DNA of 64,000 nt, taken from contig CALFNN010000010.1 of NCBI GenBank assembly GCA_937902925.1, positions 62,001 through 126,000 on the forward strand, read 5' to 3'. Below the pieces are notes generated by a model that ran no database searches, had not been told where the DNA came from, and saw only the letters and a program-made list of their open reading frames with translations. The position numbers were made by a program, and so were the translations under genes. Each line of letters begins with the position of its first letter. The first letter of the stretch is position 1. This document shows, piece by piece, positions 16,487 through 41,379 of the stretch. This stretch comes from an uncultured Opitutaceae bacterium. GTDB taxonomy: Bacteria > Verrucomicrobiota > Verrucomicrobiia > Opitutales > Opitutaceae.

Positions 16487-16499
16487 TTGAATTCCCGAT

Positions 16500-18343: not shown

Positions 18344-18346
18344 GGG

Positions 18347-24088: not shown

Positions 24089-24106
24089 GGGCGGAAAGGC
24101 GGAAAT

Positions 24107-24229
24107 TCAACGGTGGCGCAGCGCGGCGGACCGGGTGCTGCGCCGCCAGCCGGCCGGGGCGGGGCGGCCAAACAGCCGCAGACACGCCGCGACGAGCTTC
24201 AGGCCGAGGCGGCGAATTGCGCGAGCCAT
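24107..24229 (-). CDS. Possible small basic protein after carbamoyltransferase
   Basis: A 40-codon frame opening MARAIRRLGLKLVAACLRLF with ATG start and TGA stop. It overlaps the last 31 bp of the carbamoyltransferase gene and ends 18 bp before the acetyltransferase ATG. It is Arg-rich with one amphipathic segment. Carbamoyltransferase genes in other glycan clusters are often followed by a tiny membrane protein, but this sequence does not resemble the one I know. It may simply bridge translation across the gap, or be chance. Confidence 0.25.
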   Translation of the reverse strand: MARAIRRLGLKLVAACLRLFGRPAPAGWRRSTRSAALRHR

Positions 24230-26882: not shown

Positions 26883-27832
26883 GTGATTTCCATCCACCAG
26901 CAGGAAGCGTCAGGGAGGGCGGTCCAGGCCGCGAGGAAACCCGCCGGCGGCGGTGCCATCCAGCCGGGCACGCCCGAGGCGGCGAGTTGTCCGGCGAGCC
27001 AGTGGCCGGGGAGGAGCGGACGCACCCGGGCGCCGCCGCCGAGCAACCAGGCGGCCAGAAGATATTGCTCGTTCCACAGGCGGTTCAGATGGCGCGGGGG
27101 ATAGTCGTCGGGAAGATATATATCGTGGACATGGACGCGGGTGCCCGCCGGGAGCCGCGGCAGCACGTCCAGAAAAAACCGGGTGACGTCGCTCCCGGGA
27201 AACGTGTAGTGACTCCCGTCGATGAAGAGGACGGTATCGGGCCCGGTCTCGGACAGGATCACATCGAGCGAATCCTCGAAGCGGCGGTTGATGATCCGGT
27301 CGGCGATGCCGGCGATTTCCGCCCGGGGTTGCGGATCGATCGAGACGATCTCGAACGGCCGGCCGTTTTTCCGGGCGAGATCGGCGAGGTGCGTCGAGAG
27401 GCCGGAACCGACCTCGATGTATTTGCGCGGGGGCCGGTCACGCAGCGTCCCGTAGTCGCAGGCGAGGTCGAGCGCCGTCTGGAACATGTTTTGCCAGGCG
27501 AGCGGCGCGCCGGCGGCCGGCACGGCCGGCAGGCCGGCAAGTTCGGGGAGGAACGCGAGGGCACGCCGGGCCTGCGCGACGCAGGAGCCGAGGTGGGGCT
27601 GAAGCCAGGCCTGCAGTTCCGGGTGTGACGGCCGGCCGTGGCCCCATGCCGACGGCTGCTGAAGGTCAGGCGCGAAGTCGAATCGCAGCAGGTCGAGTCC
27701 ATGCCCGCCGATGCCGGCGCGATCGAGGGCAAGCCAGGCGACATTGCTGCGGCGCAGGCTGCGCAAGGTGCGGGCGTAAAACGCCACGCGCAGTTTGATC
27801 CACCGGACGTTGAGGTGGCCGAGCAGGGACAT
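26879..27832 (-). CDS. Class I SAM-dependent methyltransferase
   Basis: A 317-residue protein whose central domain is a Methyltransf_24-like fold: RKYIEVGSGLSTHLADLARK (about 143-162) is the SAM-binding loop, FEIVSIDPQPRAEIA gives the acidic strand, and TVLFIDGSHYTFPGSDVTRF follows. DIYLPDDYPPRHL and WNEQYLL are features of sugar methyltransferases in surface-glycan loci. It probably methylates a sugar or the glycan terminus. Only 1 bp separates its start from the stop of the GT61 gene downstream of it in coordinate order, meaning upstream in transcription; its stop overlaps the GT2 gene. Confidence 0.82.
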   Translation of the reverse strand: MSLLGHLNVRWIKLRVAFYARTLRSLRRSNVAWLALDRAGIGGHGLDLLRFDFAPDLQQPSAWGHGRPSHPELQAWLQPHLGSCVAQARRALAFLPELAGLPAVPAAGAPLAWQNMFQTALDLACDYGTLRDRPPRKYIEVGSGLSTHLADLARKNGRPFEIVSIDPQPRAEIAGIADRIINRRFEDSLDVILSETGPDTVLFIDGSHYTFPGSDVTRFFLDVLPRLPAGTRVHVHDIYLPDDYPPRHLNRLWNEQYLLAAWLLGGGARVRPLLPGHWLAGQLAASGVPGWMAPPPAGFLAAWTALPDASCWWMEIT

Positions 27833-27833
27833 G

Positions 27834-28958
27834 TCAGCCGGAGGCGAAAGCAGCGATGGCGGAGGCGAGGCCAGCCGGCGGAGCGGTGGAGAAATCCACC
27901 ACCGCCCACGCGTAGGGTTGCCGGCCGATGCTGGCGAGCCGGCCGTAGATGGGTTGACGGTTTGCGTCCGGAAAGAGCTCGATCACCCGGGTGCCGGGCG
28001 CACAGAAGACCAGATTGGCGAGACCGGCCCCGTGTGGCCCCGCGACGGCGGCGGCATCGCGCATCAGTGCGATCTGTGCGACCGGGGCGAGATCGGCGAG
28101 CGTGACGCGTTCGAAGCCGGGGAGCTGGGCAAGCAGGGCCGACTCCCACGCGGGCTGGCGGCTGCGGGCGTCGGCCCGGCTGAGCCAGAGCCGGCGGCGA
28201 CCGGGTGAAAGCGGCGGCGTGGCGTCGAGCAACACGTGGAGGGCGGACGAGATCCACGGCGTGGGCTGATAGTCGCGCATGAGGTAGTTGGCAAAGAGCA
28301 ACTGTTCGCAACGGAAGTGCGCGAGACCCTCCACCCACACGAGCCGAGCCGGATCGAGGCCCGCGCGAACGAGCCATTTTTCCTGAAACGAACCCTGCGT
28401 GCCGTTGACGAGAATATGGTGGACCTGCGGCCGCTGGGCGCGCGCCAGCCAGAGTCGGGGCAGGCTCTCGACGAGGAAATGATAAAATCCCTCGGCGCTG
28501 AGCAGCGCGAGGTTCAGGGTGCAGCCAGGGAGCGGGACGGGAGCCGGCACACGCGGCGCCGCCAGCACCGGGTGGCGCTCGACCGCCGTTGTCCAAGAGC
28601 GCATCGATTCGACAACGGCCATCCGGGTGAGCGGGCAGTAAACCACGCCGTCGGCCCCGATGACGCCGGCGTCGCTGAGGCTGTAGAGGATTTTTTCCTG
28701 GGGTGGTGGAATGCCGCCGGCCAGATACCGCGGGCGCCCGTCGATCATTTCGCCGCTGCCCGGCTGACCCAGCAGGGCCTGGCCCGGCGAATAAACACTG
28801 GAGTCGCCCGGTTCCGAAAACAGGACGCCATTGAATCCCTCCGGCTGATGGATGCCGCGAGAGCGGGTGTGGCGTGCGGCGACGATTTGAGAGAAAGGCG
28901 CGACGCGATTCGGTCCGTGACCGGTCAGGCGGTTGATGAGGCGTTTGAGCGGACGCAC
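27834..28958 (-). CDS. GT61 family glycosyltransferase
   Basis: A 374-residue protein of the DUF563/GT61 type. It has LLSAEGFYHFLVESLPRLWL (N-x-Y-H-x-x-x-E/L-P-R), LWLSRADARSRQ (the R-x-x-A-x-x-R strand), and near the C-terminus AVAGPHGAGLANLVFCAPGT followed by VIELFPD, the family's HG-A-G-L-x-N signature. GT61 enzymes include xylosyl- and arabinosyltransferases and bacterial surface-glycan transferases. The start is a GTG 4 bp after the preceding stop; a longer frame would run into the upstream gene. Confidence 0.85.
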   Translation of the reverse strand: MRPLKRLINRLTGHGPNRVAPFSQIVAARHTRSRGIHQPEGFNGVLFSEPGDSSVYSPGQALLGQPGSGEMIDGRPRYLAGGIPPPQEKILYSLSDAGVIGADGVVYCPLTRMAVVESMRSWTTAVERHPVLAAPRVPAPVPLPGCTLNLALLSAEGFYHFLVESLPRLWLARAQRPQVHHILVNGTQGSFQEKWLVRAGLDPARLVWVEGLAHFRCEQLLFANYLMRDYQPTPWISSALHVLLDATPPLSPGRRRLWLSRADARSRQPAWESALLAQLPGFERVTLADLAPVAQIALMRDAAAVAGPHGAGLANLVFCAPGTRVIELFPDANRQPIYGRLASIGRQPYAWAVVDFSTAPPAGLASAIAAFASG

Positions 28959-28962
28959 GGGA

Positions 28963-29952
28963 TCAGCGGTGAAAGAACAAGTCGGACGGCTTGTGCTCGG
29001 CGGGTGCCACACCGAGCCGCGCGAGGAGCCGCGAGGCGACTTCCGGATGGCGGTCATATTGATGGACCACGGCGAAGGGCCGGCCGTGGGCGTCGCTGAG
29101 CAGGTCGTCGGCCGTCCAGCGGATCGAGGCGGGATTGAGCCCGTGCAGGTTGACGATGCCGCCGTTCTCGAAATCGGCGAAGCGAACATTGGGAAGCGCG
29201 CGCCGGCGGACGACGATGTTATGCGCGCCGGTGTCGGCCCCGTGAAAATTGGCGACGTTGATGCCGGGCGAGGTGAGGGCGTCGACGACCAGGGCCAGGT
29301 ATGCGGCGATGACCGGACCGGAACCGAGCACGACGCCGACGCACGAGACGCGTTCCGGAGCGAGGGCGTCGCGCAGCGTGGCGCCGCCTACGCGCTCCAC
29401 CCAGAGCGAGTTGGCCCAATGGCTGCCGATGGTGACGCTCGCGTCCTCAAGGCCATAAAGAATTCCCGGCTCGGTGATGAGGGCGAACGGATCGGCTTGA
29501 AAAACGACGTCGCGGATGTCGCTCAAGAGCACGCGATCGCAGTCGGGAAGGACATGGCGCAAGGCAAGGTAGAACTCGACGAAACGCCGCGTGTTGGGAT
29601 CGAGGAAGTGACGCACGGTGCGGGCGCGCCAGAGGAGCCTGGCCTCGGCGGTGAGGCCCGGGAGCGCGTTGATCCACGCGGCATAGCGGGTATGGAGGCG
29701 GGCCCAGCGGGTATTGCCGGGCCAGATCTTCCGGCCGAAAAACCGCGCGCGATAATACCGATAGGGCAGAAGCGTGCAGCGCCGGGCGCGCAGTTCGTCG
29801 CGCGTGGCGGCGGAAATCTCGCTGCTGGCAAGGATGACCTCCGCATGCGGTGCGACCCGCCGGAGTGAATCGAGAAACGGGCGCGCCATGGCGGCGGGAT
29901 AGCCATGGACAAGGCCGAGCACCAGGTCGCGCGATGATTTCGGGGCGGACAC
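28963..29952 (-). CDS. Putative GT-A glycosyltransferase, unassigned
   Basis: A 329-residue soluble protein. VLLSDIRDVVFQADPF near residue 146 is a D-x-R-D motif of nucleotide-sugar transferases that replace the DXD with SD-x-RD, followed by GVVLGSGPV and GADTGAHNIVV, which would be the acceptor/base strand. No membrane segment is seen. I recognise the fold type but not a named family. Gaps to both neighbours are 4 bp, so it is tightly embedded among GT61 and GT9-like genes. Confidence 0.58.
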   Translation of the reverse strand: MSAPKSSRDLVLGLVHGYPAAMARPFLDSLRRVAPHAEVILASSEISAATRDELRARRCTLLPYRYYRARFFGRKIWPGNTRWARLHTRYAAWINALPGLTAEARLLWRARTVRHFLDPNTRRFVEFYLALRHVLPDCDRVLLSDIRDVVFQADPFALITEPGILYGLEDASVTIGSHWANSLWVERVGGATLRDALAPERVSCVGVVLGSGPVIAAYLALVVDALTSPGINVANFHGADTGAHNIVVRRRALPNVRFADFENGGIVNLHGLNPASIRWTADDLLSDAHGRPFAVVHQYDRHPEVASRLLARLGVAPAEHKPSDLFFHR

Positions 29953-29956
29953 GGGA

Positions 29957-30952
29957 TCAGTCCAGGCTCACGGCGGCGGTTTCGAGTGAGGCGCCGAGCC
30001 GGGTTTCGAGGCGGCCAACGGCGGCGAGGACGTGCGCCGGCAGAATCTGCTGCATGCAGCCGTGGCCGATCCGGCATTCGTCGTCGATGCCGCAGGGAGC
30101 GCAGGCCGCGACGCCGACGAGATTCTCGTTGGCGACGTAGCCCGATTGCAGGGGATGCTCGCGGCCGCCGTAGACGATCACCGCCCGGGTGCCGACCGCG
30201 CGCGCGAGGTGCATCAGGAAGCCGACGAGGCCGACAAAAAAACGAGCCTGGGCGAGCAGGGCGGCGACCTCGCGCAACGCCAGGGTGCCACGCAGATCCT
30301 CGACGCCGCGTAACACGAGGTCGTCGCGATGCCCGGTTTGCACGAGGCGGTGGTGCGGGCGGAGCGCGTCGACCACCTGTTGCATCCGTTCGATGGGCCA
30401 GTTTTTGGCCGGCAGGGTGTGCCGGGCGTTCAAGCAGGAGGACTGGACGACGACAGCGCCAGCGTAACTGGCGAAACGTTCCTTTTCGCCGGTTTGAAAA
30501 TGATAGTAGGGGCGCAGGTCGACCCCGCCAGTCAGCCCGGCGCTGCGACAGAGTTGCGCGACCACATGGTCGGCCGGCATGGGGACGCGCGGCGGCTGTT
30601 CCTGCGGGATGCGATAGACGGGATGGACCACGCGGCGTTGCCAGCGCCGGAGCGACTCGACCAGCCCGTAGTCGTAGGCGTGGAGCGAACGGATCCCGGG
30701 ATCGCCGCGATACAATTCCGGGTGGGGTGTCATCAGCGAGACGGAGCCCGGTTCGCGGCGATTCAGCTCATGGACGACCGCGGAGCAGTTGAGGCTGTCG
30801 CCGATCCCGCCGCCACCGAGATAGACCAGGGTGCGAATGCGCGCGAGTTCACGCCATCGCGGCAGGTCGGTGCGCGCCCAATAAACCCGCCGGTAGGCCC
30901 GGCGGAACGCGCCGGCATCGTCAGGGGCGGATCCGGCTGACGGATGATTCAC
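29957..30952 (-). CDS. GT9 (heptosyltransferase-like) glycosyltransferase
   Basis: A 331-residue GT-B protein of the heptosyltransferase family. LVYLGGGGIGDSLNCSAVV (about 33-51) replaces the canonical GD-x-x-x-x-P loop, and KNWPIERMQQVVDAL, FVGLVGFLMHLARAVGTRAV and IVYGGREHPLQSGY cover the donor domain, including the G-x-x-x-H-L-A segment. Four Cys near the C-terminus (CAPCGIDDECRIGHGC) are common in GT9 relatives. It may transfer heptose or another sugar to a lipid-linked acceptor. The GTG start is the first start codon after the upstream methyltransferase stop that keeps the family's N-terminus. Confidence 0.82.
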   Translation of the reverse strand: MNHPSAGSAPDDAGAFRRAYRRVYWARTDLPRWRELARIRTLVYLGGGGIGDSLNCSAVVHELNRREPGSVSLMTPHPELYRGDPGIRSLHAYDYGLVESLRRWQRRVVHPVYRIPQEQPPRVPMPADHVVAQLCRSAGLTGGVDLRPYYHFQTGEKERFASYAGAVVVQSSCLNARHTLPAKNWPIERMQQVVDALRPHHRLVQTGHRDDLVLRGVEDLRGTLALREVAALLAQARFFVGLVGFLMHLARAVGTRAVIVYGGREHPLQSGYVANENLVGVAACAPCGIDDECRIGHGCMQQILPAHVLAAVGRLETRLGASLETAAVSLD

Positions 30953-30977
30953 GAACGAGGGAATCGCGAGACCGGGC

Positions 30978-31574
30978 TCATGCCGGCGAACCGGGCTTGG
31001 GTGGGAGTTTTTCCGCGACGAGGTCCCAGCCGTAAACGTCGACCGCGGGAGTCGCGACGAGGTAACGCACGGGACCGAGCGCCGCGAGGTGGTCCTGGAC
31101 AAACTTCAGGGAAAAATCGGCATGCTTGTGGTGAATGTTGTAGTGCCAGCCCGTTTTCCGGCAGTGCTCGCGGTAGACCTGCTCGTCGGGGCAATAGATG
31201 ATAAGGCGGCCGCCGGGTTTGAGCACCCGCAGCCATTCGCGCAGGACACTGCGGGTGTCCTCGAAATCCTCGAGCAAGTGAGACGAAAAGACGAAGTCGA
31301 GGGAGTCATCGCGAAACCATTTCAAGTCGGCGGCGTCGCCGCGGAGCTGCGCTTGATATTGGCCGACCGCGCCGTATTGGGCAGGCATGTCGACCCGGAC
31401 CGCCTCAGGCGTGATCGGGTCGCCGCCGAACCCGAGATCGACGCCGTCGCCAATGCAATAAGGGGCAAGGCGGGCACGGCATTTCGACGTTTCGCTGGGC
31501 ATCGGGCGGCGGTAACGCCAGTGGCGGTAGCGATGCCAGAGCGGGCGCAGGAAATTCTTCAGGGGATTGCTCAT
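30978..31574 (-). CDS. Class I SAM-dependent methyltransferase
   Basis: A 198-residue methyltransferase of the Methyltransf_11 type. GVDLGFGGDPIT replaces the usual E-x-G-x-G-x-G SAM loop, VRVDMPAQYG is the acidic strand, and SLDFVFSSHLLEDFEDT with LREWLRVLKPGGRLIIYCPD gives motifs II and III. It resembles small methyltransferases common in O-antigen loci. It is separated by 8 bp from the stop of the wzt-like gene and by 25 bp from the GT9 start, so it is part of the same transcript. Confidence 0.83.
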   Translation of the reverse strand: MSNPLKNFLRPLWHRYRHWRYRRPMPSETSKCRARLAPYCIGDGVDLGFGGDPITPEAVRVDMPAQYGAVGQYQAQLRGDAADLKWFRDDSLDFVFSSHLLEDFEDTRSVLREWLRVLKPGGRLIIYCPDEQVYREHCRKTGWHYNIHHKHADFSLKFVQDHLAALGPVRYLVATPAVDVYGWDLVAEKLPPKPGSPA

Positions 31575-31582: not shown

Positions 31583-32827
31583 TCAGGCGGAGGAGAGCCG
31601 CCAGTCGCTCGGCGGGCGCCAGTCCCCGTAAATCCCGTGCAAATGGGGCGGAGTGGTGGCGCCGGGCTGGACGTCCACGACCGTGCAGTCGGGCACGTAG
31701 TGGTAGCCCTCGTGGCTGGTGCCGTAAGCGCCGACATCGACGCGATAGCGGCCGGGAACGAGGTCAAGGACGGGCACCGTCACCTCCAGGGCGTGCGCGC
31801 CGGCGCGCTCGAGGGCAATGAATTTTCCGTGATAGTCGCTCTCGAGCGTGAGCACCCGGCGGCCATCGACGCTGCAAAAACCGATGCCGAAGCCGGCACC
31901 GGCGAGCGGGCGGGTGGTCGCAAAGCGCAGGGCGATGGTGAGTGGCTGGCGGTTGACGAGCGGGGCGGCGGCGTTGAGCGAGAGCGAGAGCAGCTTGACC
32001 GGGGCGTTCGGAGCGTGTCCCTCGCGGGTGAGATCGATGCTGGCGCCCCCGGCGTGCCGCCCGGTCGTGACGTAACCGTTGATCGCGAGGTCGGTGCGAC
32101 CGTCGAGCACCACACGACCGCGGTCGAGCAGGATGCCGCGGCGACAGAAACGCGCGATGGCCGCGATGTTGTGGCTGACAAACAGGATGGTGCGGCCCTC
32201 CTCCTGCGCGACGGATTCCATCTTGCCGAGACACTTGGCCTGAAAGTCGGCGTCGCCCACGGCGAGGACCTCGTCGACGATAAGAATCTCCGGTTCGAGG
32301 TGGGCGGCGACCGCGAAGGCGAGCCGGACATACATCCCGCTGCTGTAGCGCTTCACCGGCGTATCGATGAACTGTTCGATTTCGGCGAAGGCGACGATCG
32401 GGTCGAACTTGTGCCGGATTTCACTTCGACGCATCCCCAGGATGGCACCGTTCAGGAAAATGTTTTCGCGGCCGGTGAGTTCGGGATGAAACCCGGTGCC
32501 GACCTCGAGCAACGAGGCCACGCGGCCGCGGATGCTCACGCGGCCGGCGGTCGGCTCGGTGATGCGCGAGAGGATTTTCAGCAGCGTGGATTTGCCGGCG
32601 CCGTTGCGGCCGATGACCCCGACCACGTCTCCCTTCGCCACCTCGAAGGAAATGTCGCGCAGCGCCCAGAATTCCTCCTGCGTCGACGCCCGGCGGGCCG
32701 CGCGCGAGCGAAAACGCGACCACAGGCCGCGCAGGCCGTGGCTCAGGGTGTCGCGCAGCGTGTCATGCTGCGCCTGGTGGCCGATGTAGTAGCGCTTCGA
32801 GAGGCCGGCGACGGAGATGGCGCTCAT
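31583..32827 (-). CDS. wzt: Polysaccharide ABC exporter ATP-binding protein (Wzt-like)
   Basis: A 414-residue ABC protein. Residues 1-250 are the nucleotide-binding domain: Walker A GRNGAGKST (73-81), signature YSSGMYVRLA (161-170), Walker B ILIVDEVLAVGD, and switch His219 in FVSHN. A beta-sandwich C-terminal domain (about 255-414, from GGASIDLTREG) matches the Wzt carbohydrate-binding domain, which recognises the modified non-reducing end of the glycan before export. The NBD starts with a typical TagH/Wzt HDTLRDTLSHGL stretch. The ATG overlaps the permease stop by 4 bp. Presence of the binding domain suggests that export depends on a terminal modification, perhaps by one of the neighbouring methyltransferases. 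Confidence 0.93.
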   Translation of the reverse strand: MSAISVAGLSKRYYIGHQAQHDTLRDTLSHGLRGLWSRFRSRAARRASTQEEFWALRDISFEVAKGDVVGVIGRNGAGKSTLLKILSRITEPTAGRVSIRGRVASLLEVGTGFHPELTGRENIFLNGAILGMRRSEIRHKFDPIVAFAEIEQFIDTPVKRYSSGMYVRLAFAVAAHLEPEILIVDEVLAVGDADFQAKCLGKMESVAQEEGRTILFVSHNIAAIARFCRRGILLDRGRVVLDGRTDLAINGYVTTGRHAGGASIDLTREGHAPNAPVKLLSLSLNAAAPLVNRQPLTIALRFATTRPLAGAGFGIGFCSVDGRRVLTLESDYHGKFIALERAGAHALEVTVPVLDLVPGRYRVDVGAYGTSHEGYHYVPDCTVVDVQPGATTPPHLHGIYGDWRPPSDWRLSSA

Positions 32828-33672
32828 ATGACGTCGGCAAACTGGCGTTCGGTCTTCCGGAAATACCAGACGCCGCTGGCGAAGAGCAGGGCGGTCAAGA
32901 GCACGGAATAACCCAAGGTCAACGGGTCCAGCGATTGGTTGCCGTTGAGGAGACACCAGCGAAAGCCATTGATTACGCCGGTGAGCGGATTGAGGGCGAA
33001 GAGGGCGCGCCAGTTTGGGTAGTAGTCGGTGCGGAATCCGACCGGGGACACGAACACGCCAATCTGGAGGAAAAACGGCACGAGATAGCGAAAGTCGCGA
33101 AAACGGACGGTGAGGCTCGTCAACCACAACCCGGCGCCGAGCGCGAGCAGCAGCGCGACGAGCATGTAGAGGGGCAGAAGCAGCCACTGCCAGCCCGGCA
33201 CGAAGCCATAGCAGAGCGAGACGAGGAGGAAGAGGCCAAGCACCATCGCAAAATCGACGAGGGCGACGGCGAGGGCGGACATGGGCACCACCATGCGGGG
33301 AAAATAAACCTTGGAGATCAGGTGAGAGTTGCCGACAACGCTGTTGCTGACACCGCCAAGGGCATTGGCGAAAAGCTGCCATGGCAGGAGACCGGCAAGC
33401 ACGAGAAGCGGGTAGGGGACGCCGCCGGTCGGCATGTTCGCCAGCCGGCCGAAGACGAAAGTGAAGATCACCATCTGCACGGTGGGTTGCAGCAGGGCCC
33501 AGGCGGCGCCCAAGGCGGCCTGCTTGTAGCGGACCTTGACATCGCGCCAGGCGAGAAACCCGAGCAGTTCGCGGTAGCGCCACAGTTCGCGCCAATAGTG
33601 GGCCTCGGCGCGACCGGCCTCGAGCACGAGTTCGGAAGCCTCCCCGGCAGGGTTGGCGGCATCGGCGTTCAT
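32824..33672 (-). CDS. wzm: Polysaccharide ABC exporter permease (Wzm-like)
   Basis: A 282-residue ABC-2 permease with six membrane segments. After a soluble N-terminus, LLGFLAWRDVKVRYKQAALG (about 32-51) is the amphipathic coupling element typical of Wzm/TagG, then WALLQPTVQMVIFTFVFG, and near the end FFLQIGVFVSPVGF and LNPLTGVINGFR. It forms the channel that exports undecaprenyl-linked glycan. The start ATG is the first after an 88-bp gap and gives the normal length. The 4-bp overlap with wzt ensures paired expression. Confidence 0.93.
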   Translation of the reverse strand: MNADAANPAGEASELVLEAGRAEAHYWRELWRYRELLGFLAWRDVKVRYKQAALGAAWALLQPTVQMVIFTFVFGRLANMPTGGVPYPLLVLAGLLPWQLFANALGGVSNSVVGNSHLISKVYFPRMVVPMSALAVALVDFAMVLGLFLLVSLCYGFVPGWQWLLLPLYMLVALLLALGAGLWLTSLTVRFRDFRYLVPFFLQIGVFVSPVGFRTDYYPNWRALFALNPLTGVINGFRWCLLNGNQSLDPLTLGYSVLLTALLFASGVWYFRKTERQFADVI

Positions 33673-33760
33673 ATGGTCGATAGTGAGTTCGCCGTCGGCC
33701 CCGACGGCGAATCCGAAAAGCGGGGCCGGGGGACGGGACGAGACCGGTCGATCGCGAGCT

Positions 33761-35566
33761 TCATCGCGATTCCGGAATTCCGGCGGGAGGGAGGCGAAAA
33801 GCAAAATAGGGTCCGGCTCGGTCGACCAAATCGCCGCGAATGGCGGAACGATCCCGGGTAATGGCGACAAGTTTCCCGGCGGGGGCCAGTCGTTCGTCGA
33901 GCCGGGCGGCATCCCGGACGAGCGGGGCCTCCTTCTGCACGTCGAGATAGAGATCCGGCTGGAAGGTGACGTAGGCTCCACTTGCGACAAGGCGATGGAC
34001 AAGTTCGACCATGGCCTCCGTGTAGTGCACCGGTTGGAAGCTGCCGGTGCGCACGGCGCGCAGTTCGGTCGGGATCCAGAGCGCCACCAGCAGCGGGACC
34101 AGCGCGCCCGCCCGGCGTGCCGAGGGCAGACTCAGGGCGTCGGCCCATCGCGCGAGGCAGGCGAGCAACAGGATGAGAACAAAGAGCGAAACGGCTTTCA
34201 CGTAGTTGTGCGTCGCGTTCGGCACGTGTTGGAAAACCTTGAGCAAAGTGCCGGCGACCAGCGCGGCCGAGGCGCCCCCCAGCGTTCCCACCAGCAACCG
34301 GCTGCGCCGGCAGTTCACGGCCAGGACAGTGCCGCCGATCAAGAAGAGGCCGGCGGCCGTGTCGAGCGCCCAGTCGAATTGGGTCCGGGGAAACGGCAGC
34401 TCGTAACCGAGGACGGTCCGAAATCCCGCGATTTCTCCGAACCCAATCAACCTTTTCCATTCCCACCCCCGCAGTTCGGCCCCGCTCAGGAACGTCAGCT
34501 CACGCCAGCTCGCCGGAATGTAGTAAAACGTAGTGGCCAGGAGCGAGAGACCGAGCCCCAGCAAGACATTCCAGCGGCGCTTTGTCTTTGGGGCGCGAAA
34601 AGTCGCGAAGACCAGTGCCAGCAGGATGACGCCGATCACTGGCGGGATTGTCGGGTGATGCAGCATGGCCGCGGCCAGGAGCAGGCCGGCGGCAATGCCC
34701 GCGCGGACGGCGGCTGGGCCCGGGAGCAACCCAAAGGCCGCCTCAAGGGCCAGGAGAAATCCGGCAAATCCGAGCAGCACGCCGGTCGCCTGGCTCGCAT
34801 AGGAAAAATAGAGCAGAAAGTAGAGAAAAGGGTGGCACGCGACGATCAACAGCGGCCAGATGGCGCGGCAGCGAATGGTCTCGAGCCAGACTGCGCCGAG
34901 GCCGACGATCAGGATCATCGCGGCGACGATCGCGGGATTTATCACCCGATAGAGCTTGCCGGATGAGAAGACGCTGGCGGCCTCCGCGAGATAGACCATG
35001 TTGCCCAACCGGGCGTGAAGAAAAAGATGGTCCCGGATGTCGTCGGAACGAAATTCCGTCTGGGTCTCGTAGGCGTGACGGCTGGCGCCGTGCAGCAGCA
35101 GGTAGTCCGACACTCCCCAATACGCCGCAAAGTCTCCCGAGCCCCAATAGTCGCGCACGTCGGTCCTGCCCTCGACGGTCATGAGGTAGGACGAAAGCGA
35201 AGTGATTAGTCCGCTCAACACGAGCAGGCGCAGGCCTCGTCTGCGCAGATAGGCCAGGGCGCGTTTTTGGCGCAGCAACGGGTGCCGCCGCCGCAAGAGA
35301 ATCGTCGCCGTGAGGCCGCAGACGGCGAGCGACGTCATCAACCCGGGGACGAAAGTTCCAACCGGCAGGCCGAGGAGCGAGAGGGGAAGACCGAGCACCG
35401 TCACAACCGCGAGGCCCACCACGGGGGTGACAACGATCCAGCGAAAGGCAAAGCGGCCGGGCAGAAACAACAGCGTGGCGCCCCAGCCGGCCACCCCTCC
35501 GAACGCGAGCAGGCCGGCGACGCTGGCGGTGAGGCGCAGCCACTGGATCAGGAGATGTGCCAGCAT
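33761..35566 (-). CDS. Polytopic membrane protein, possible GT-C glycosyltransferase
   Basis: A 601-residue membrane protein with about twelve to fourteen hydrophobic segments and no clear family. SGDFAAYWGVSDYLLLHG (Asp145 near its start) follows the third or fourth membrane segment, and resembles the D-F-x-x-Y-x-x-A segment of GT87-type GT-C transferases, but the similarity is short. A soluble tail (about 530-601) has FQPDLYLDVQKEAPLV. A 13-bp palindrome, AAACCC-G-GGGTTT on the plus strand, lies 24 bp before the start and may be incidental. It could be a polyprenyl-sugar transferase or a membrane protein for glycan modification. Confidence 0.5.
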   Translation of the reverse strand: MLAHLLIQWLRLTASVAGLLAFGGVAGWGATLLFLPGRFAFRWIVVTPVVGLAVVTVLGLPLSLLGLPVGTFVPGLMTSLAVCGLTATILLRRRHPLLRQKRALAYLRRRGLRLLVLSGLITSLSSYLMTVEGRTDVRDYWGSGDFAAYWGVSDYLLLHGASRHAYETQTEFRSDDIRDHLFLHARLGNMVYLAEAASVFSSGKLYRVINPAIVAAMILIVGLGAVWLETIRCRAIWPLLIVACHPFLYFLLYFSYASQATGVLLGFAGFLLALEAAFGLLPGPAAVRAGIAAGLLLAAAMLHHPTIPPVIGVILLALVFATFRAPKTKRRWNVLLGLGLSLLATTFYYIPASWRELTFLSGAELRGWEWKRLIGFGEIAGFRTVLGYELPFPRTQFDWALDTAAGLFLIGGTVLAVNCRRSRLLVGTLGGASAALVAGTLLKVFQHVPNATHNYVKAVSLFVLILLLACLARWADALSLPSARRAGALVPLLVALWIPTELRAVRTGSFQPVHYTEAMVELVHRLVASGAYVTFQPDLYLDVQKEAPLVRDAARLDERLAPAGKLVAITRDRSAIRGDLVDRAGPYFAFRLPPAGIPESR

Positions 35567-35642: not shown

Positions 35643-38600
35643 TCAGATCGAGTCGGATTCGGACGTTGCGTTGGCCGAAAGGAGCGAGGCCAGGCGCGAT
35701 TGGAACCGGGTGAAGGAAAAGTGGCGGGCGCGTTCGAGGATCGGGCGTTCGTCCCAGTCCCGCTGCAAGGCGGTGACGCTCGCGGCAGCGATGCCGGGCA
35801 CGTCGCCATATTCGACCAGCACGCCGGTATCGTTGGTGATCACCTCGGGAATGCCGCCCGCCCGGGCGCCGAGACACGGACGGCCATGGGCCATCGCCTC
35901 GACGAAGACGAGGCCGAAGCCTTCCTTTTTGCTGGGCAGAGCGAAGAGACGGCACCGGCGCATTTCCTCCGCCAGGCAGGCGTCATCGATAAAACCGGTG
36001 AATTCGACGGCATCGGCCAGCCCGAGTTCATCGCGCAGAGCCTGCAGGCGCGGCTGGTCGTCGCCGCGGCCGACGATGCGCAGGGTCGCGGCGGGGATCG
36101 CGGCCCGGATGGCCGGCATCGCTTCGATCAAATGTTGCACGCCCTTGTAGCGGTCATCGTGAGTAAGGCGCGTGACCACAAGGATCACCGGCGGGCACTG
36201 CGCGAGCGGCGTGCCGCCCGCGATGTCAAAATGGGGATCGAGGGTGTTGTGGAGCACGACGGCCCGGCCGCGGCGAAGCGGACAATGCTTCAGCAGTTCG
36301 CGGCGGGTATAATCGCTGACGCAGAGCACTCGCTCCGCGTCGCGCAGCGCGAGGCGCTCCGCGAGATTGAATTGCCGCCAGACCTCGATGCCATGCGCGA
36401 CCAGATAGTAACGAAGGCGGGGATTGAGGCGGCGGGCCAGCCAGGCCACGGGAAGTTGCCCGACGTGGCCGCAAACGACCCGCTCGCATCCCCGGCTCAT
36501 GCGCAACGCGGCACGGACGAAGCGGGCTTTGTTCCGGCTGCATACATGCCAGTCGTCCAGGGCGGCGGAGGCGTAGCGGTGAAGGCTCGACGAATTGATT
36601 TCCGCATCGTTGAGGGCGACGAGACGAACTCCGTGGCCCGCCTCGGGAAGTTCGCAGAGCGCCTTGAGGTAAACCTGCAGGATGCGGGGGATGCCGCCTT
36701 CGGACGCGAAGATTTCGGGCGCGAGCAATAGTGTCCGCGAACGGACTTTTCGTCCGCGGGCCGGAAAGGCGGCTGCCGGCGGCGGGGGATGCGCGGCCGT
36801 TCCGGAGGAGGAAGCGACGGTCACTGCCGGATCGGTCGGCCGTGGAGACGCAGAGGGCGCGCGGCGATTGGTGAAGGCCACGAGCACCGCGAGACTCCAC
36901 ACGCGCGACCATTCGCGTTCGTCGTCGCTCGTCAGGAAACCGCGCCAGAGATTTTGCACCTCGGCGCGGGCGAATAATTGGCTGCGGTCCACGCTGGCGT
37001 CGGAAAACGTCTCCTCGAGAAAAGGGCGCAGTTCGCGTTTCATCCACAACGGAAACGGAAGGGTAAAGCCCCACTTGCGCCGATTGGACAGGCCCGGCGG
37101 CAGCAAGTCCCGCGTCGCTTCGATGAGCGTGGTCTTTCGGTGCAGCGGGTCGGTTTTGAACGTCGCGGATTGGTGCCACAACCACTCGATCAACGGCCGG
37201 TCCACGAATGGCACGCGGAGTTCCAACGAATGGCGCATGCTCATCACGTCGCTGTCGCGCAGGAGCACGTCGGCCATGTAGGTGCGCAGTTCCCAGGCGC
37301 TCATGACCTCAAAAACGCCCGCGTCCGCAAGGTCCACGGTGAGTGCGGCGAGTTCCGGATGATGCGGAGCGCGGCCGTCGAGCGCCGCGCGGGCGTCGGG
37401 CCCGAGCAACGGGCGGCGGCTCGATTCGGAAAACACGCGGCGTTGAAGCGAGCCGAGTTCACCGAGATTGCGCGCATGTTGGAGAAAATCGGCCAGCTTG
37501 CGCCGGCGCGTGCCGCCGCGGTTCAAGCGCGAGATGATCGACTGGCGCACCCGGGCCGGCAGGCGGCGCCACCAGGGCAGCCAAGGCGCGAGACGCGGGA
37601 GATCGCGGAACGAAGGATAACCCCCGAAAAGTTCGTCGCCGCCGAGACCCGAGAGCGCGACGGTCACGCCTCCGGCGCGGGCGGCGCGGCTGGCGTAGTA
37701 GGTGTTGACGCCGTCGCCGGTGGGTTGGTCGAAGGCGGAAAGCAGTTGTTCGAGATCCCGGGCGACATCTGCGCCGGTCAACACCGACGGATGATGGTCC
37801 GTGCCCAGATGACGGGCGGTGGCCGCCGCATTCTCGGCCTCCGAGTAGCCGGCCTCGCCGAAACCGATCGAGAAAGTCCGCAGGCGATGTCCGCCGACGC
37901 GGGTCATCAACCCGACGACCACCGCCGAGTCGAGCCCGCCGGAAAGAAATGCGCCCACCGGCACGTCGGCGACCACATGGGCCCGGATGGAGTCCTCCAG
38001 CCGCGCACGCAACTCGTCGTTGAATTCTTCGCGGGTGACGCACGGCTTGGGTTCGTCCGGGATGGTGCGGAAACTCCACGCCGTCCTGATGTCGAGGCGG
38101 CCGGCGCGAAAAGTAGCGCATTCGCCCGGGCGGAGGCTGAATGTGTCGCGATAAATTGTGCGCGGAGCCGGCACCGCGAACCACGCCAGATAGTCGGCCA
38201 CGGAGGCCGGGTCGACTTCGGCGGCAAAGATCCCGGACGCCGCGAGCGCGTTGAGTTCGGAGGCAAAGAGAAATCGCGTGCCCTCGTGCCGGTAGTAGAG
38301 CGGCTTGATGCCGAAAGGATCGCGCGCGAGAAACAGCGACTGCTCGTGCGCGTCCCACACGGCGAATGCGAACATGCCGCGGAATTTTTCGAGGCAGCGT
38401 TCGCCCCAGCGAGCGTAGGCGGCGAGCAGCACCTCGGTGTCGCAGTTGGTGCGAAACTCCCAACCGGTGGCGGCGAGCTCGCCGTGCAGGGCGCGGAAAT
38501 TATAAATCGCCCCGTTGAAAACCAGCGTATAGCGCCCGTCGGGCGACGACATTGGTTGGTGCCCGTTGGCAGGATCGAAGATTGCGAGCCGGCGCATGCC

Positions 38601-38738
38601 GAGGGTCGCGTCGCCATGGGACTCCATGCCTTCGTCGTCCGGTCCGCGGTGAACCATCGCGTTGCACATGCGCGTAACCGCGTCCATTCGGGTTGCCGGC
38701 GCTCTTTGTGGATCGACGAATCCGGCTATGCCACACAT
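35643..38738 (-). CDS. Asparagine-synthetase-type amidotransferase fused to GT4
   Basis: A 1031-residue fusion. Residues 1-620 are class-II glutamine amidotransferase plus synthetase: catalytic Cys2 (MCGIAGFVD), RGPDDEG, FNGAIYN, ATP pyrophosphatase loop SGGLDSA (266-272), SGLGGDELFGGY (363-374) and LELRVPFVD. A Pro/Ala/Ser-rich linker (about 625-667) joins a full GT4 domain (668-1031) with APEIFASEGGIPRILQVY, THDDRYKGVQHLIEAM, and SKKEGFGLVFVEAMAHG with an E-x7-E pair. No internal stop or frameshift occurs, and the linker has no ATG start. In O-antigen loci such amidotransferases amidate uronic acids; here that could be coupled to the sugar transfer. It is the first gene of the cluster, and the start lacks a ribosome-binding motif. 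Confidence 0.9.
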   Translation of the reverse strand: MCGIAGFVDPQRAPATRMDAVTRMCNAMVHRGPDDEGMESHGDATLGMRRLAIFDPANGHQPMSSPDGRYTLVFNGAIYNFRALHGELAATGWEFRTNCDTEVLLAAYARWGERCLEKFRGMFAFAVWDAHEQSLFLARDPFGIKPLYYRHEGTRFLFASELNALAASGIFAAEVDPASVADYLAWFAVPAPRTIYRDTFSLRPGECATFRAGRLDIRTAWSFRTIPDEPKPCVTREEFNDELRARLEDSIRAHVVADVPVGAFLSGGLDSAVVVGLMTRVGGHRLRTFSIGFGEAGYSEAENAAATARHLGTDHHPSVLTGADVARDLEQLLSAFDQPTGDGVNTYYASRAARAGGVTVALSGLGGDELFGGYPSFRDLPRLAPWLPWWRRLPARVRQSIISRLNRGGTRRRKLADFLQHARNLGELGSLQRRVFSESSRRPLLGPDARAALDGRAPHHPELAALTVDLADAGVFEVMSAWELRTYMADVLLRDSDVMSMRHSLELRVPFVDRPLIEWLWHQSATFKTDPLHRKTTLIEATRDLLPPGLSNRRKWGFTLPFPLWMKRELRPFLEETFSDASVDRSQLFARAEVQNLWRGFLTSDDEREWSRVWSLAVLVAFTNRRAPSASPRPTDPAVTVASSSGTAAHPPPPAAAFPARGRKVRSRTLLLAPEIFASEGGIPRILQVYLKALCELPEAGHGVRLVALNDAEINSSSLHRYASAALDDWHVCSRNKARFVRAALRMSRGCERVVCGHVGQLPVAWLARRLNPRLRYYLVAHGIEVWRQFNLAERLALRDAERVLCVSDYTRRELLKHCPLRRGRAVVLHNTLDPHFDIAGGTPLAQCPPVILVVTRLTHDDRYKGVQHLIEAMPAIRAAIPAATLRIVGRGDDQPRLQALRDELGLADAVEFTGFIDDACLAEEMRRCRLFALPSKKEGFGLVFVEAMAHGRPCLGARAGGIPEVITNDTGVLVEYGDVPGIAAASVTALQRDWDERPILERARHFSFTRFQSRLASLLSANATSESDSI

Positions 38739-38914: not shown

Positions 38915-39463
38915 TCACGCGCAGATTGATCGCGCAACCTCATGAGCTCTCTCGGGGGAGAGCAGCTTTGCAATCAGCAGCAGGCCGAAGTCGAGCGCTG
39001 TGCCCGCCCCTCGAGACGTGAGAATGTGTCCGTCGGCGACGACGCGTTCGTTCGCGATGATGCCAGGCAACTCCGCCGCCACGGAAAAATGCGCCGTGTA
39101 GTTCCGGCCCGCGAGCACGCCGGCATCGTGCAAAACGGTCGGTGCGGCGCAAATGGCGGCGATCCAGCGGGCGGCGGAGTGCTGGCGCAGCACGAGGGCG
39201 CGCACGCGCGGATCGGCGCGGAGATGTTTCACGCCTGGTCCTCCTGGCAGGAAAAGACAGTCGAAATCACGCGGCCCCTTCGATTCGAGGGCGGCCAGAC
39301 TGGTGTCGGCGTGCAGTGTGATTCCGCTGCGGCCGGTTACGTGAATGCCGTCGCCGAGCGCGGCCGTGGTCACCTCGGCTCCGGCGCGGCGCAGCAAATC
39401 GATGGGGGTGACCGCCTCGACTTCTTCAAATCCCTCCGCGAGGATTGCGAGGACCGTGGGCAT
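38915..39463 (-). CDS. DJ-1/PfpI family protein (YajL-like)
   Basis: A 182-residue DJ-1 superfamily protein. AILAEGFEEVEAV places the conserved Glu that pairs with the nucleophile near residue 13-17; Cys105 in AAICAAPTV is the nucleophilic elbow Cys, and FLPGGPGVKHL is another family segment. YajL/DJ-1 proteins are stress-related, with reported chaperone, glyoxalase or deglycase activities. ATG at 39463 gives the normal N-terminus; a longer frame adds twelve residues. Its start lies only 18 bp from the divergent SDR gene. It is co-oriented with the polysaccharide cluster but separated by 176 bp. Confidence 0.9.
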   Translation of the reverse strand: MPTVLAILAEGFEEVEAVTPIDLLRRAGAEVTTAALGDGIHVTGRSGITLHADTSLAALESKGPRDFDCLFLPGGPGVKHLRADPRVRALVLRQHSAARWIAAICAAPTVLHDAGVLAGRNYTAHFSVAAELPGIIANERVVADGHILTSRGAGTALDFGLLLIAKLLSPERAHEVARSICA

Positions 39464-39481: not shown

Positions 39482-40381
39482 ATGACCGCCGATGCCCACG
39501 GAAAATTTTCAGGAAAACGCCTCGTGATTCTCGGCTGCGGTTACGTCGGAACGGCGATGGCGCGTAAAGCGCGGGCCTCGGGGCTCCGGGTTATCGCGCT
39601 GACCCGCAACGAAGCGAAGGCGGCGGCGTTGCGGGCGGAGGGCGTCGAAACCGTCGTCGCGGACCTGGCGGGCGACGCGTGGCACACCCGGATTCCCGGG
39701 GAAGCGGACCTCGTGCTCAATTGCGTGAGTTCCGGCGGCGGCGGGATCGAGGCGGTTCGCCGCAGCTACATTGGCGGGATGGAGTCGTTGCTCGCCTGGG
39801 CGCGGACGCGGGGAGCGCCGGGCACGATTGTCTATACCGGGAGCACGTCGGTTTATCCGCAGGGCGGCGGCGTTCGAGTCGACGAAACTGCGCCGACAGC
39901 CGGCGCGGGGGAACGCGCGCAGTCTTTGCTCGAAGCCGAGGCGCGATTGCGGAGCGGGGTCGGGGCCGGCGGGCGATGGTTCATCCTGCGGCTGGCGGGA
40001 ATCTACGGGCCGGGGCGCCATCGTCTGCTCGATCAAGTCCGGGCGGGTCAGGTGGCGGGACGGGGCGAGCACCAGCTCAATTTGATCCATCGCGACGACA
40101 TTGTCGCCGCGATCTGGGCGGCGTTTGCCGCCGCGCCGGCAGTGGCGGGCGGGATCTTCAATGTCGCGGATGACTCGGCGGCGACCCGGGCTGAAATCGC
40201 GATGTGGCTGGCCGGAAGGCTCGGCGTGGCGGTGCCCCGGTTTACCGGCGAGCCGATGCCGGGGCGCACCGTGGTGACGCCCGACCGCATCATCGCCAAC
40301 GGCCGGATCAAGGCACAGCTCGGCTGGCGGCCCGCTTTCCCCGGTTTCCGGGAAGGCTACGAAAATATTTTGTCGCGTTAG
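39482..40381 (+). CDS. SDR-family NAD(P)-dependent epimerase/dehydratase-like protein
   Basis: A 299-residue extended SDR. The Rossmann motif is LVILGCGYVGTAMARKA (about 14-30), with a later YTGSTSVYPQGGG (Ser/Tyr area) and RLAGIYGPGRH; the sequence lacks a clear Y-x-x-x-K pair, as in the YeeZ-type NAD(P)-binding proteins, so classic epimerase activity is uncertain. LIHRDDIVAAI and IFNVADDSAATRAEI are standard for the family. The gene is divergent from the DJ-1-like gene by 18 bp. Confidence 0.82.
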   Translation: MTADAHGKFSGKRLVILGCGYVGTAMARKARASGLRVIALTRNEAKAAALRAEGVETVVADLAGDAWHTRIPGEADLVLNCVSSGGGGIEAVRRSYIGGMESLLAWARTRGAPGTIVYTGSTSVYPQGGGVRVDETAPTAGAGERAQSLLEAEARLRSGVGAGGRWFILRLAGIYGPGRHRLLDQVRAGQVAGRGEHQLNLIHRDDIVAAIWAAFAAAPAVAGGIFNVADDSAATRAEIAMWLAGRLGVAVPRFTGEPMPGRTVVTPDRIIANGRIKAQLGWRPAFPGFREGYENILSR

Positions 40382-40453
40382 GTCAACGGCCGGATCTCAA
40401 CTCTCCGTCTTCCAGAACCACCCAAGGCGAAAATCCCTCAACTCCCATCATCC

Positions 40454-40762
40454 ATGGCCGGCGTAGGCAAACTTCTCAAACAAGCCCAGAAAATGCAGCG
40501 CGGCATCGAGGCGCTCCAGACGCAGCTCGAGGCCAAGGAAATCGACGTCGCGAGCGGCGGCGGGGCGGTGAAGCTCAAGATCAACGGCGCGGGCAAGTTC
40601 CTCGCGCTGGTCCTCGATCCGGAATTCTTGAAGGAGGACGCGAAGCTGGTGGCGGACACCGTGCTCGCCGCGGTGCAGGATGCGGCGAAGCAGGCGAAGG
40701 AATACAACGACGCCGAGATGCAGAAGGTGACGTCGGCATTCCAGATGCCCGGAATGTTCTGA
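40454..40762 (+). CDS. ybaB: YbaB/EbfC nucleoid-associated protein
   Basis: A 102-residue protein, MAGVGKLLKQAQKMQRGIEA at the start, then a beta stretch VKLKINGAGKFLALVLDPEF, and a C-terminal helix ending PGMF. It matches YbaB/EbfC, small dimeric DNA-binding proteins usually encoded before recR, and it is so here, 20 bp before the recR start. The usual dnaX gene is not in front of it; an SDR gene is. It probably binds DNA and supports recombination repair. Confidence 0.93.
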   Translation: MAGVGKLLKQAQKMQRGIEALQTQLEAKEIDVASGGGAVKLKINGAGKFLALVLDPEFLKEDAKLVADTVLAAVQDAAKQAKEYNDAEMQKVTSAFQMPGMF

Positions 40763-40782
40763 GCGCCGGCGCGCGTGTTGCG

Positions 40783-41379
40783 ATGACGCCGGCGTTCGAA
40801 AAGCTGCAGAAGCATCTCAAGCAACTGCCCGGCCTCGGTTATCGTTCGTCGGAGCGGATTGCGTTGCACCTGCTGGTCGAGAAGCCCGGCCAGTTGCCGG
40901 CGCTCGTTGCGGCACTCGAGGAAGCGGCCCGGGCGGTGCGGCGCTGTGCCCGCTGCGGCAACCTGGCCGAGGCCGAGCATTGCGCGATCTGCGCGGACGA
41001 GCGCCGCGACCGTTCCGTCGTGTGCGTGGTGGAGCACGTGCCCGATCTCGTGGCGATCGAGCGCAGCGGCGCCTACCGCGGTTCCTATCATGTGCTGCAC
41101 GGAAAGCTTTCGCCGATTCACGGCGTGGGTCCGGACGATCTCAACGTCGCGGCGTTGCGGGCCCGGATCGAGTCGGGCGAGGTGGCCGAGCTGATTCTCG
41201 CGTTGTCCAACGACGTCGAGGGTGAGGCGACCTGTCATTATCTCACGGAGCACCTGCCGGCCGGCCGGGATGTCAGGATCACGCGGATCGGCTTCGGACT
41301 GCCGAGCGGCGGCGGCGTGCTTTATGCGGACTCGGTCACGTTGAAGAGCGCGCTCGACGGGCGGCGAACCTACCACTGA
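40783..41379 (+). CDS. recR: Recombination mediator RecR
   Basis: A 198-residue RecR. An N-terminal helix-hairpin-helix (KHLKQLPGLGYRSSERIALH), a C4 zinc finger (Cys55, Cys58, Cys67, Cys70 in CARCGNLAEAEHCAIC) and a Toprim domain (VCVVEHVPDLVAIERSGAY), ending in DVRITRIGFGLPSGG. RecR clamps DNA with RecO and helps load RecA at gaps. The ATG shortly after ybaB gives the exact family length. The sensor kinase gene converges from the other side with only 9 bp between the stops. Confidence 0.96.
   Translation: MTPAFEKLQKHLKQLPGLGYRSSERIALHLLVEKPGQLPALVAALEEAARAVRRCARCGNLAEAEHCAICADERRDRSVVCVVEHVPDLVAIERSGAYRGSYHVLHGKLSPIHGVGPDDLNVAALRARIESGEVAELILALSNDVEGEATCHYLTEHLPAGRDVRITRIGFGLPSGGGVLYADSVTLKSALDGRRTYH

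Follow-up and report, generated by a model that had tools for sequence, protein, structure and literature searches.

An AsnB-type amidotransferase fused to a GT4 glycosyltransferase in an ABC-exporter glycan island of an Opitutaceae bacterium

The stretch analysed here (the window, 64,000 nucleotides of an uncultured Opitutaceae genome) carries a gene that joins an AsnB-type amidotransferase to a GT4 glycosyltransferase, and this fusion is real. The preliminary description, made from the sequence alone, had reported one unbroken two-domain frame. Indeed, the frame opens with ATG, runs for 1031 codons on the minus strand without an internal stop and encodes a protein that matches GATase_7/GATase_6 and Asn_synthase over residues 33-617 and Glyco_transf_4/Glyco_trans_1_4 over residues 696-992, all above the curated Pfam cut-offs. 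The merging of two frames by a sequencing error is unlikely, since 25 further relatives' loci are fused alike. We propose, with a probability of about one half, that the product is a bifunctional enzyme, formed from neighbouring asnB-like and GT4 genes that head a Wzm/Wzt locus, which would amidate a carboxylate (likely C6 of a uronate) and add a sugar.

The fused frame and its domains

The AsnB half begins with Met-Cys and a GATase_7/6 domain, as in class II glutamine amidotransferases, and its Asn_synthase domain bears the SGGLDS loop of the AsnB type (Table 1). In an alignment of 14 fused proteins, Cys2 (presumably the glutaminase nucleophile, as in the class II family), SGGLDS (which we take to be the ATP-pyrophosphatase loop), SGLGGDE and the E939/E947 pair are invariant. 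All three AsnB motifs had been described as intact; this holds for Cys2 and SGGLDS, but it is misleading for SGLGGDE, which is present and invariant in the 14 proteins yet contains a non-canonical Leu365.

The complete GT4 domain with its E-x7-E pair was correctly recognised. This half has a GT-B fold, and its best Foldseek matches are 3oka (TM 0.76-0.78) and 3mbo. GT4 transferases are retaining enzymes. PimB', BshA and similar GT4 proteins share the fold and the E-x7-E pair with the window protein, but their identity to it is about 22% and its donor and acceptor cannot be inferred from them. The Pro/Ala/Ser linker, previously placed near 36738-36866, corresponds to residues 628-662 or so, and it is variable. 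In the AlphaFold model both domains are confident and the linker is disordered; the whole-model pTM is 0.65 and the interface between the two halves is not resolved. No description of an AsnB-GT4 fusion was found in searches of open PMC papers, which does not prove that none exists.

Table 1. Position of the fused gene, its functional elements and the surrounding genes in the window
Feature	Coordinates	Strand	Basis
Fused gene: AsnB-type amidotransferase, linker, GT4	35643..38738	-	1031 aa; frame, Pfam, relatives' loci
AsnB-type half, residues 1-622 (glutaminase and Asn_synthase domains)	36873..38738	-	Pfam; PDB relatives 7ylz, 1ct9
Cys2 codon	38733..38735	-	Sequence; invariant in alignment
SGGLDS loop, residues 266-271	37926..37943	-	Invariant in alignment
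SGLGGDE, residues 363-369; Leu365 at the E. coli AsnB Glu348 place	37632..37652	-	Sequence/structure comparison
Pro/Ala/Ser-rich linker, residues 628-662, predicted disordered (pLDDT < 50)	36753..36857	-	Predicted structure
GT4 half, residues 666-1022, GT-B fold	35673..36743	-	Pfam, Foldseek
GT4 E-x7-E (E939, E947)	35898..35924	-	Invariant in alignment
601-aa protein, hydrophobic by eye, between fusion and wzm	33761..35566	-	ORF
wzm-like ABC-2 permease, start not certain	32824..33804	-	PF01061
wzt-like ABC ATPase with C-terminal Wzt_C	31583..32827	-	PF00005, PF14524
Rest of island in window: GT2/GT4/GT9/GT61, methyltransferases, carbamoyltransferase, acyltransferases, Wzy_C protein	262..31574	-	Profile matches
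DJ-1/PfpI gene, conserved upstream neighbour, island flank	38915..39463	-	PF01965
SDR-family gene, 102-aa gene (presumably YbaB-like), recR: conserved flank	39524..41379	+	Sequence, relatives

Fused and split forms at one genomic site

At one syntenic site, 111 loci were compared: 26 fused (window included), 80 split and five without a GT match, so that AsnB and GT adjoin in 106 (26 + 80) of the 111. The set excludes asnB matches at contig ends (e.g. in G021 and G124), fragments and the frameshifted G016, and one locus scored as fused (L243) encodes only 897 aa with a shortened GT half. The stop and start codons overlap in 54 of the 80 split pairs (ATGA in 41, GTGA in 13, in the GT frame), and in three split loci about 0.8 kb lies between the asnB and GT genes. 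Split genes side by side, which the preliminary description had proposed to look for in relatives, are thus the form found in 80/111 loci. It had counted two separate genes in close relatives against its reading, yet the fusion stands, as a form derived from two conserved neighbouring genes.

All trees in this work are quick trees without bootstrap; some outgroup segments (at least L087 and L097) extend a few residues beyond the asnB stop, and several outgroup rows have long branches. On the GT tree, from which three loci with short GT pieces (L163, L202 and L243) were left out, the 25 fused rows all fall within one clade. Four split loci are nested inside it, one of them through an in-frame TAG within the linker, so the fusion as such is not required. 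In agreement with this nesting, strict monophyly of the fused forms was rejected on the GT tree (AU test, p 0.009). It was also rejected on the AsnB tree (p about 5e-73), an outcome which means either that AsnB and GT have different histories or that the AsnB tree is unreliable. A recombination breakpoint inside asnB was considered and none was shown: the trees of four stretches, the fourth of which lies within the third, required 9, 11, 8 and 11 fused/split changes against 4 on the GT tree, with no gradient.

Many relatives make these enzymes as neighbouring proteins; their union in a single protein suggests that the two work together on the same part of the surface sugar chain. The coupling of amidation and sugar transfer put forward in the preliminary description is supported by the 106 adjoining pairs, the 54 overlaps and a similar fusion in three Bacteroidota loci. 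The fusion might instead be a near-neutral by-product of overlapping frames, which fixed stoichiometry and expression while the two enzymes, physically uncoupled, each act on a different residue of one glycan. The start/stop overlaps, the variable and disordered linker with a whole-model pTM of just 0.65, and the split loci nested among fused ones, including the TAG case, would all fit such an origin; the Bacteroidota fusion of these two genes, which looks independent, and the asnB-GT4 adjacency in several phyla do not, and we consider it unlikely, though far from negligible. On the evidence of fused and split forms at one site, stop/start overlaps and a recurring asnB-GT4-wzm-wzt order, the window protein is a Rosetta-stone fusion of two conserved partners linked to glycans that an ABC transporter exports. 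The pair is not inseparable: in one relative, G003, the site has DJ-1, GT4 and wzm, and since just 168 bases separate the DJ-1 and GT frames there is no asnB there. Thus, GT4 can be kept at this site without amidation.

Active site and family placement of the AsnB half

The window AsnB half has the domain order, Cys2 and SGGLDS of E. coli AsnB (1CT9), but differs from it by the GT4 fusion, the glycan-island setting and the presence of Leu365 in place of Glu348. The acidic residue expected at this position of asparagine synthetase B proper is absent here. In the human enzyme, Glu-364 lines a tunnel beside the synthetase site (PMC11615228, in excerpt).

WbpS and WbqG have been assigned in print to TIGR03108 (eps_aminotran_1). 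WbpS makes a uronamide in P. gingivalis (PMC7468200, in excerpt), and the N-glycan is altered in a wbpS mutant of H. pullorum (PMC6025236, in excerpt). Like these amidotransferases of O-antigen and XrtA loci, the window protein is an AsnB-type enzyme with the same two domains in a surface-glycan locus; unlike TIGR03108 amidotransferases, it is fused to a GT. It aligns to positions 1-625 of the 628 of the TIGR03108 model and its AsnB half scores below the cut-off (427.5 vs 816.9 bits), whereas TIGR01536 is exceeded (440.9 vs 267.1 bits). Three true TIGR03108 members, compared here in place of WbpS/WbqG themselves, read SGDGGDE and DEPYADSSA against SGLGGDE and DQPTGDG in the window, the third motif residue being Asp in those and Leu in the fused protein. 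On the AsnB tree, which does not include WbpS itself, the window row belongs to a non-acidic clade (SH-aLRT 95); this clade holds 25 of the 26 GT4-paired enzymes in the tree, and the three TIGR03108 members lie outside it. Since the position of Leu365 is acidic in known synthetases and in TIGR03108 amidotransferases, the chemistry of the AsnB half may differ from theirs. Uronate amidation is plausible.

The non-acidic residue at this position might also point to an amide ligase that uses an amino acid or amino sugar, instead of ammonia, as the amine to be joined to a carboxylate, as MoeH5 is reported to do. In the moenomycin cluster, moeGT1 overlaps the amidotransferase gene moeH5, whose product is reported to join several groups to the galacturonic acid unit, acting on its carboxyl (PMC8778134, in excerpt). 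We liken the two systems by description only, and in contrast to the window gene the Streptomyces antibiotic genes are unfused, with the GT gene upstream of the amidotransferase gene. That the glutaminase domain is complete, and that Cys2 does not vary among the fused proteins aligned, points rather to ammonia as the nucleophile and makes such a ligase improbable.

It is harder still to see in the AsnB half the cell's asparagine synthetase, either solely or in addition. The fused protein exceeds the TIGR01536 cut-off, and no other Asn_synthase-domain protein was found in the genome, which has an asparaginyl-tRNA synthetase (asnS) and gave no AsnA match; together with the relative that has the GT but no asnB, this makes a housekeeping role conceivable. 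Against this stand Leu365 and the presence of GatB, which makes a tRNA-dependent route possible; bacteria are known that combine AsnRS and GlnRS with GatCAB (PMC4206432). The genome is 95% complete, and the assembly may lack a further synthetase. Moreover, in three relatives in which all first-look candidates were scored (G002, G018 and G019), the whole fused protein matched best at E 3.8e-12, 2.7e-9 and 1.8e-11, in each case in the GT part. The NCBIfam model TIGR01536 would name as asparagine synthase an AsnB-like clade tied to one glycosyltransferase and to ABC glycan export in three phyla, and 'asparagine synthase' calls in such glycan loci may be wrong. With the fused form, the substrate becomes testable with a single purified protein.

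Glycan island, proposed mechanism and other phyla

The setting in a polysaccharide island, as first described, is borne out by the Wzm/Wzt and transferase genes in the window, and its Wzm, together with a Wzt carrying a C-terminal domain, marks it as an ABC-transporter-dependent glycan locus. The 601-aa protein between the fusion and wzm had no match in Pfam or NCBIfam. Among loci with enough sequence, Wzm lies downstream in 20/21 fused and 54/64 split ones. The Wzt C-termini are at background divergence (median identity 26%, against 29% in a shuffled control), against 59% for AsnB and 70% for the Wzt ATPase part, so that the asnB-GT4 pair probably acts on a constant part of the glycan. It seems very unlikely that the pair makes a terminal cap read by the Wzt C-terminal domain as an export signal. 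The genes are neighbours and all 74 complete Wzt proteins examined have a C-terminal extension of at least 148 aa (Wzt_C being matched in the window's protein), but these C-termini are no more alike than background, in contrast to the conserved pair.

In the bifunctional enzyme that we favour, the fusion of neighbouring, often translationally coupled genes would have brought together an AsnB half that takes ammonia from glutamine via Cys2 and, with its SGGLDS loop and ATP, activates a carboxylate, most likely C6 of a uronic acid residue, to form a carboxamide, and a GT-B transferase half that transfers a sugar onto a lipid-linked acceptor. Through the flexible linker, both activities would stay on the same acceptor and in 1:1 amount, a fixed channel being unneeded. 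The pair does not vary whereas the downstream transferases and the C-terminus of Wzt do, so AsnB and GT4 would probably build a constant part of the glycan, its linkage or inner region. What the sequences themselves show is the fusion, the conservation of the pair, the recurrence of the module and the residues; from them we infer the substrates, the reaction order and the role in the constant part.

The asnB-GT4-wzm-wzt order recurs in three phyla, and both Wzm and Wzt are present in 7 of 11 testable asnB-GT4 pairs of other phyla. Weak GT4 matches (62-70 bits) downstream of AsnB (L105, L108, L121) were not counted as pairs, nor were loci where the GT4 match lies upstream instead (L105 and L120; 145 and 112 bits). 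Three Bacteroidota loci encode a fusion of 968-969 aa, and three relatives in the same AsnB clade have the split form; this fusion looks independent. Mucilaginibacter rivuli HMF5004 (L088) is a named strain in which the fused form occurs. Tentatively, and at somewhat less than even odds, asnB-GT4-wzm-wzt might be a cross-phylum core module for a constant amidated element of ABC-exported glycans, its AsnB half forming a distinct, apparently undescribed glycan-amidotransferase clade in which the acidic synthetase-site residue has become non-acidic, mostly hydrophobic, and the fused enzyme of Opitutaceae and, independently, Bacteroidota modifying and extending the same acceptor.

None of the window genes at 262-35566 matched a nucleotide-sugar dehydrogenase, epimerase or dehydratase family. 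The search of the genome gave a single UDP-glucose/GDP-mannose dehydrogenase, about 60 kb away and surrounded by housekeeping genes. Co-occurrence with a UDP-sugar dehydrogenase was uninformative as a test: nearly every genome of the family has such a gene (238 of 252), which therefore says nothing either way. A tblastn search with the genome's own dehydrogenase gave one match (L115) among 78 named loci. In four of six Pseudomonadota pairs, a gene resembling UDP-glucuronate decarboxylase (its best PDB match is 2b69) lies 72 bases to 1.8 kb upstream, which provides a link of the pair to UDP-GlcA.

A conserved gene pair that recurs in fused form

The preliminary description, in which an AsnB-type amidotransferase is joined to a GT4 transferase in one unbroken frame, is borne out: the gene starts with ATG and encodes 1031 aa without internal stop, and 26 of 111 family loci carry the fused form. 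Side-by-side split genes, which were to be sought in relatives, were found in 80 of these loci, and 5 have no GT match. The AsnB-GT4 fusion is genuine, it recurs, and the two genes that it joins are a conserved pair. The 111 loci come from 110 genomes (G243 supplies two) and comprise the near-complete asnB matches among the matches listed, plus L004, L036, L044 and L056; fragments, contig-end matches and weak paralogs were left out. At E <= 1e-80, a threshold that lets in paralogs too, 143 of 252 family genomes match, with three candidates from each genome scored. A wider sample covered 387 genomes of the phylum (E <= 1e-90, two candidates scored in each); among the matches listed, those of at least 50% identity were restricted to the family, and those outside it were AsnB-only, at 42% identity or less. 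AsnB-like matches in open frames of 1004-1181 aa were observed in G390, G488 and G478, genomes of other Verrucomicrobiota families; two have a stop within the match, and the frames are possibly other AsnB fusions.

Pfam finds GATase_7/6, Asn_synthase and GT4 domains in the fused protein, every one above cut-off. Cys2, SGGLDS, SGLGGDE and the GT4 pair E939/E947 are invariant across an alignment of 14 fused proteins. The linker is rich in Pro/Ala/Ser and varies in length. AlphaFold predicts two confident domains whose mutual placement is not fixed (mean pLDDT 92, pTM 0.65; residues 628-662 below 50). The GT half modelled alone (pLDDT 90.5) has structural matches among GT-B enzymes, PimB' and BshA included, at about 22% identity. 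The closest named-record matches to the whole protein are from Opitutae/Opitutaceae (Verrucomicrobiota), the best with 76% identity over residues 1-1021.

Positions of the features discussed
Feature	Sequence	Positions	Strand
AsnB-GT4 fused gene	window	35643-38738	minus
601-aa protein gene	window	33761-35566	minus
Wzt, C-terminal part compared between relatives	window	31583-32827	minus
GT2, hexapeptide acyltransferase and carbamoyltransferase block	window	22473-25989	
PF00884 gene	window	10284-12080	
AsnB-like match in a long open frame	G390:C3	97301-99097	
AsnB-like match in a long open frame	G488:C179	93-2012	
AsnB-like match in a long open frame	G478:C99	17072-19183	

In 54 of the 80 split pairs the asnB stop overlaps the GT start in the GT frame (ATGA in 41, GTGA in 13), and three split loci have a spacing of about 0.8 kb. 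Sequence stops less than 300 bases past asnB in three of the five GT-less loci; L176 and L218 gave no GT match in the 4.5 kb searched. Both forms occupy the same setting, with wzm downstream in 20/21 fused and 54/64 split loci having at least 2.8 kb of sequence, and DJ-1 upstream in 20/25 and 60/74, respectively.

The AsnB tree requires at least 11 changes between fused and split states, 7 of them forced by starred branches, and the GT tree requires 4, of which 2 are forced. One starred set of 29 rows in the GT tree takes in all 25 fused rows together with the splits L142, L148, L157 and L221. Of these, L142 and L148 have the GTGA overlap, and the L221 linker holds an in-frame TAG, from which the sole start codon up to the GT match is TTG. 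Fused rows as strictly one group were rejected by AU tests on both trees. This history is most simply read as a single fusion in a GT lineage and a few later fissions, with GT-linker units moving among AsnB backgrounds; this movement is what we infer, since trees from parts of asnB revealed no breakpoint.

The pair in other phyla and an unusual AsnB clade

The 78 named loci are a biased set, based on two peptide patterns and the best 80 of 553 candidates. Among them, 12 outside Verrucomicrobiota have, no more than 1.5 kb downstream of AsnB, a GT4 match above 100 bits; in two further loci, L105 and L120, the GT4 gene lies upstream instead. Three of the 12, all Bacteroidota (L086, L088, L090), have the pair in a single frame of 968-969 aa, and the other nine are split. 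In the AsnB tree these fusions form one starred set, nested with three split rows in a larger Bacteroidota set that stands apart from the Opitutaceae set. Going by the AsnB halves, the part of these proteins that was placed in a tree, we read the Bacteroidota fusion as having probably arisen independently. Genes for Wzm and Wzt come after the pair in 7 of the 11 cases that could be tested (L086, L087, L097, L112, L125, L126, L129) and were not found after it in L088, L092, L093 and L136; L090, where the sequence ends with the fused gene, is outside the 11.

Glu348 of E. coli AsnB (Cys = 1), the third residue of SGxGxDE, has a catalytic role; the window protein has Leu there, whereas human ASNS has Glu (aligned motif SGEGSDE). 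PMC11615228 places conserved Ser-362 and Glu-364 of human ASNS in a tunnel beside the synthetase site; judged by spacing, these would be residues of the same motif. Among 65 AsnB proteins placed in a tree, the acidic and non-acidic types call for only 2 changes. The non-acidic clade (support 95) contains 25 of the 26 GT4-paired rows, L092 being the one acidic row among the 26; L269 is a non-acidic row placed among acidic ones. TIGR03108, the family to which PMC7468200 assigns WbpS and WbqG, is represented in the tree by three true members other than these two; all three are acidic and fall outside the non-acidic clade.

A UDP-glucuronate decarboxylase-like gene lies upstream in 4 of 6 Pseudomonadota pairs, and also in L117, which has an AsnB of the non-acidic clade but lacks the GT4; in all five loci (L087, L112, L117, L125, L126) it precedes a non-acidic AsnB gene. 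None was found in the window, and the short flanks of family loci gave only matches of 28-32% identity.

According to published work, WbpS makes a uronamide (PMC7468200), H. pullorum has a wbpS (PMC6025236), and moeGT1 overlaps moeH5, whose product acts on a galacturonic acid unit at its carboxyl (PMC8778134); the literature covered also included PMC9614988, PMC9834719, PMC2943079, PMC2883993 and PMC4206432. No description of the fused form was found in the literature searched. The fusion itself is of less interest than the module around it and the unusual AsnB clade.

Asparagine supply and the surrounding glycan island

No Asn_synthase-domain protein other than the fused one was found in its 95%-complete genome, in which asparaginyl-tRNA synthetase and GatB are present and AsnA gave no match; a housekeeping role is therefore possible. 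Against this, in relatives such as G002, which is 100% complete and had every candidate scored, the strongest match to the whole protein (E 3.8e-12) falls within the GT part, and an AsnB-like gene of this kind was thus not observed there. The sole UDP-glucose/GDP-mannose dehydrogenase found in the window's genome is about 60 kb off, in a housekeeping context.

The site itself varies naturally, and both variants, like the results on asparagine supply and the dehydrogenase, count against reading AsnB-GT4 as a pair that acts on the glycan. G003 (L014) retains DJ-1, GT4 and wzm in order without asnB, its DJ-1 and GT frames being 168 bases apart. In G001 (L176) asnB is retained, the GT and transporter genes are gone, and a lipoamide-dehydrogenase-like gene occupies the expected GT position.

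In the window, a DJ-1/PfpI gene lies 176 bases upstream of the fused gene, near an SDR gene, a 102-aa gene that we take to be YbaB-like, and recR; these flanks were found again in named relatives. Downstream on the same strand follow the 601-aa protein gene, wzm and wzt with its Wzt_C domain, then about 31 kb of genes for glycosyltransferases, methyltransferases, acyltransferases and carbamoyltransferases. Outside the window, where part of the genes was scanned, the run includes a Bac_transf gene, presumably the initiating transferase, and runs up to a dihydrolipoamide-dehydrogenase-like gene.

A C-terminal extension of at least 148 aa is present in each of the 74 loci whose Wzt is complete. 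Over 300 random pairs, the median identity of this extension was 26% vs 29% for a shuffled control, against 70% for the Wzt ATPase part and 59% for AsnB (approximate values, with free end gaps); between relatives, the window and 74 related loci, the C-terminal parts diverge to background identity. For most genes of the distal island, relatives turned up in only a few of the 78 named loci. Because the Wzt C-terminus and downstream transferases vary while AsnB-GT4 persists, we favour the view that AsnB-GT4 would act on a part of the glycan that stays constant.

The 601-aa protein has no match in Pfam or NCBIfam and a relative in only one of the 78 named loci (L064, 47%). The three-gene block has counterparts 57-75% identical in L077, closer than any seen for most distal island genes, and may have been exchanged as one unit. 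The island also holds a sulfatase-family gene (PF00884) whose product could be a sulfatase or a phosphoethanolamine-type transferase.
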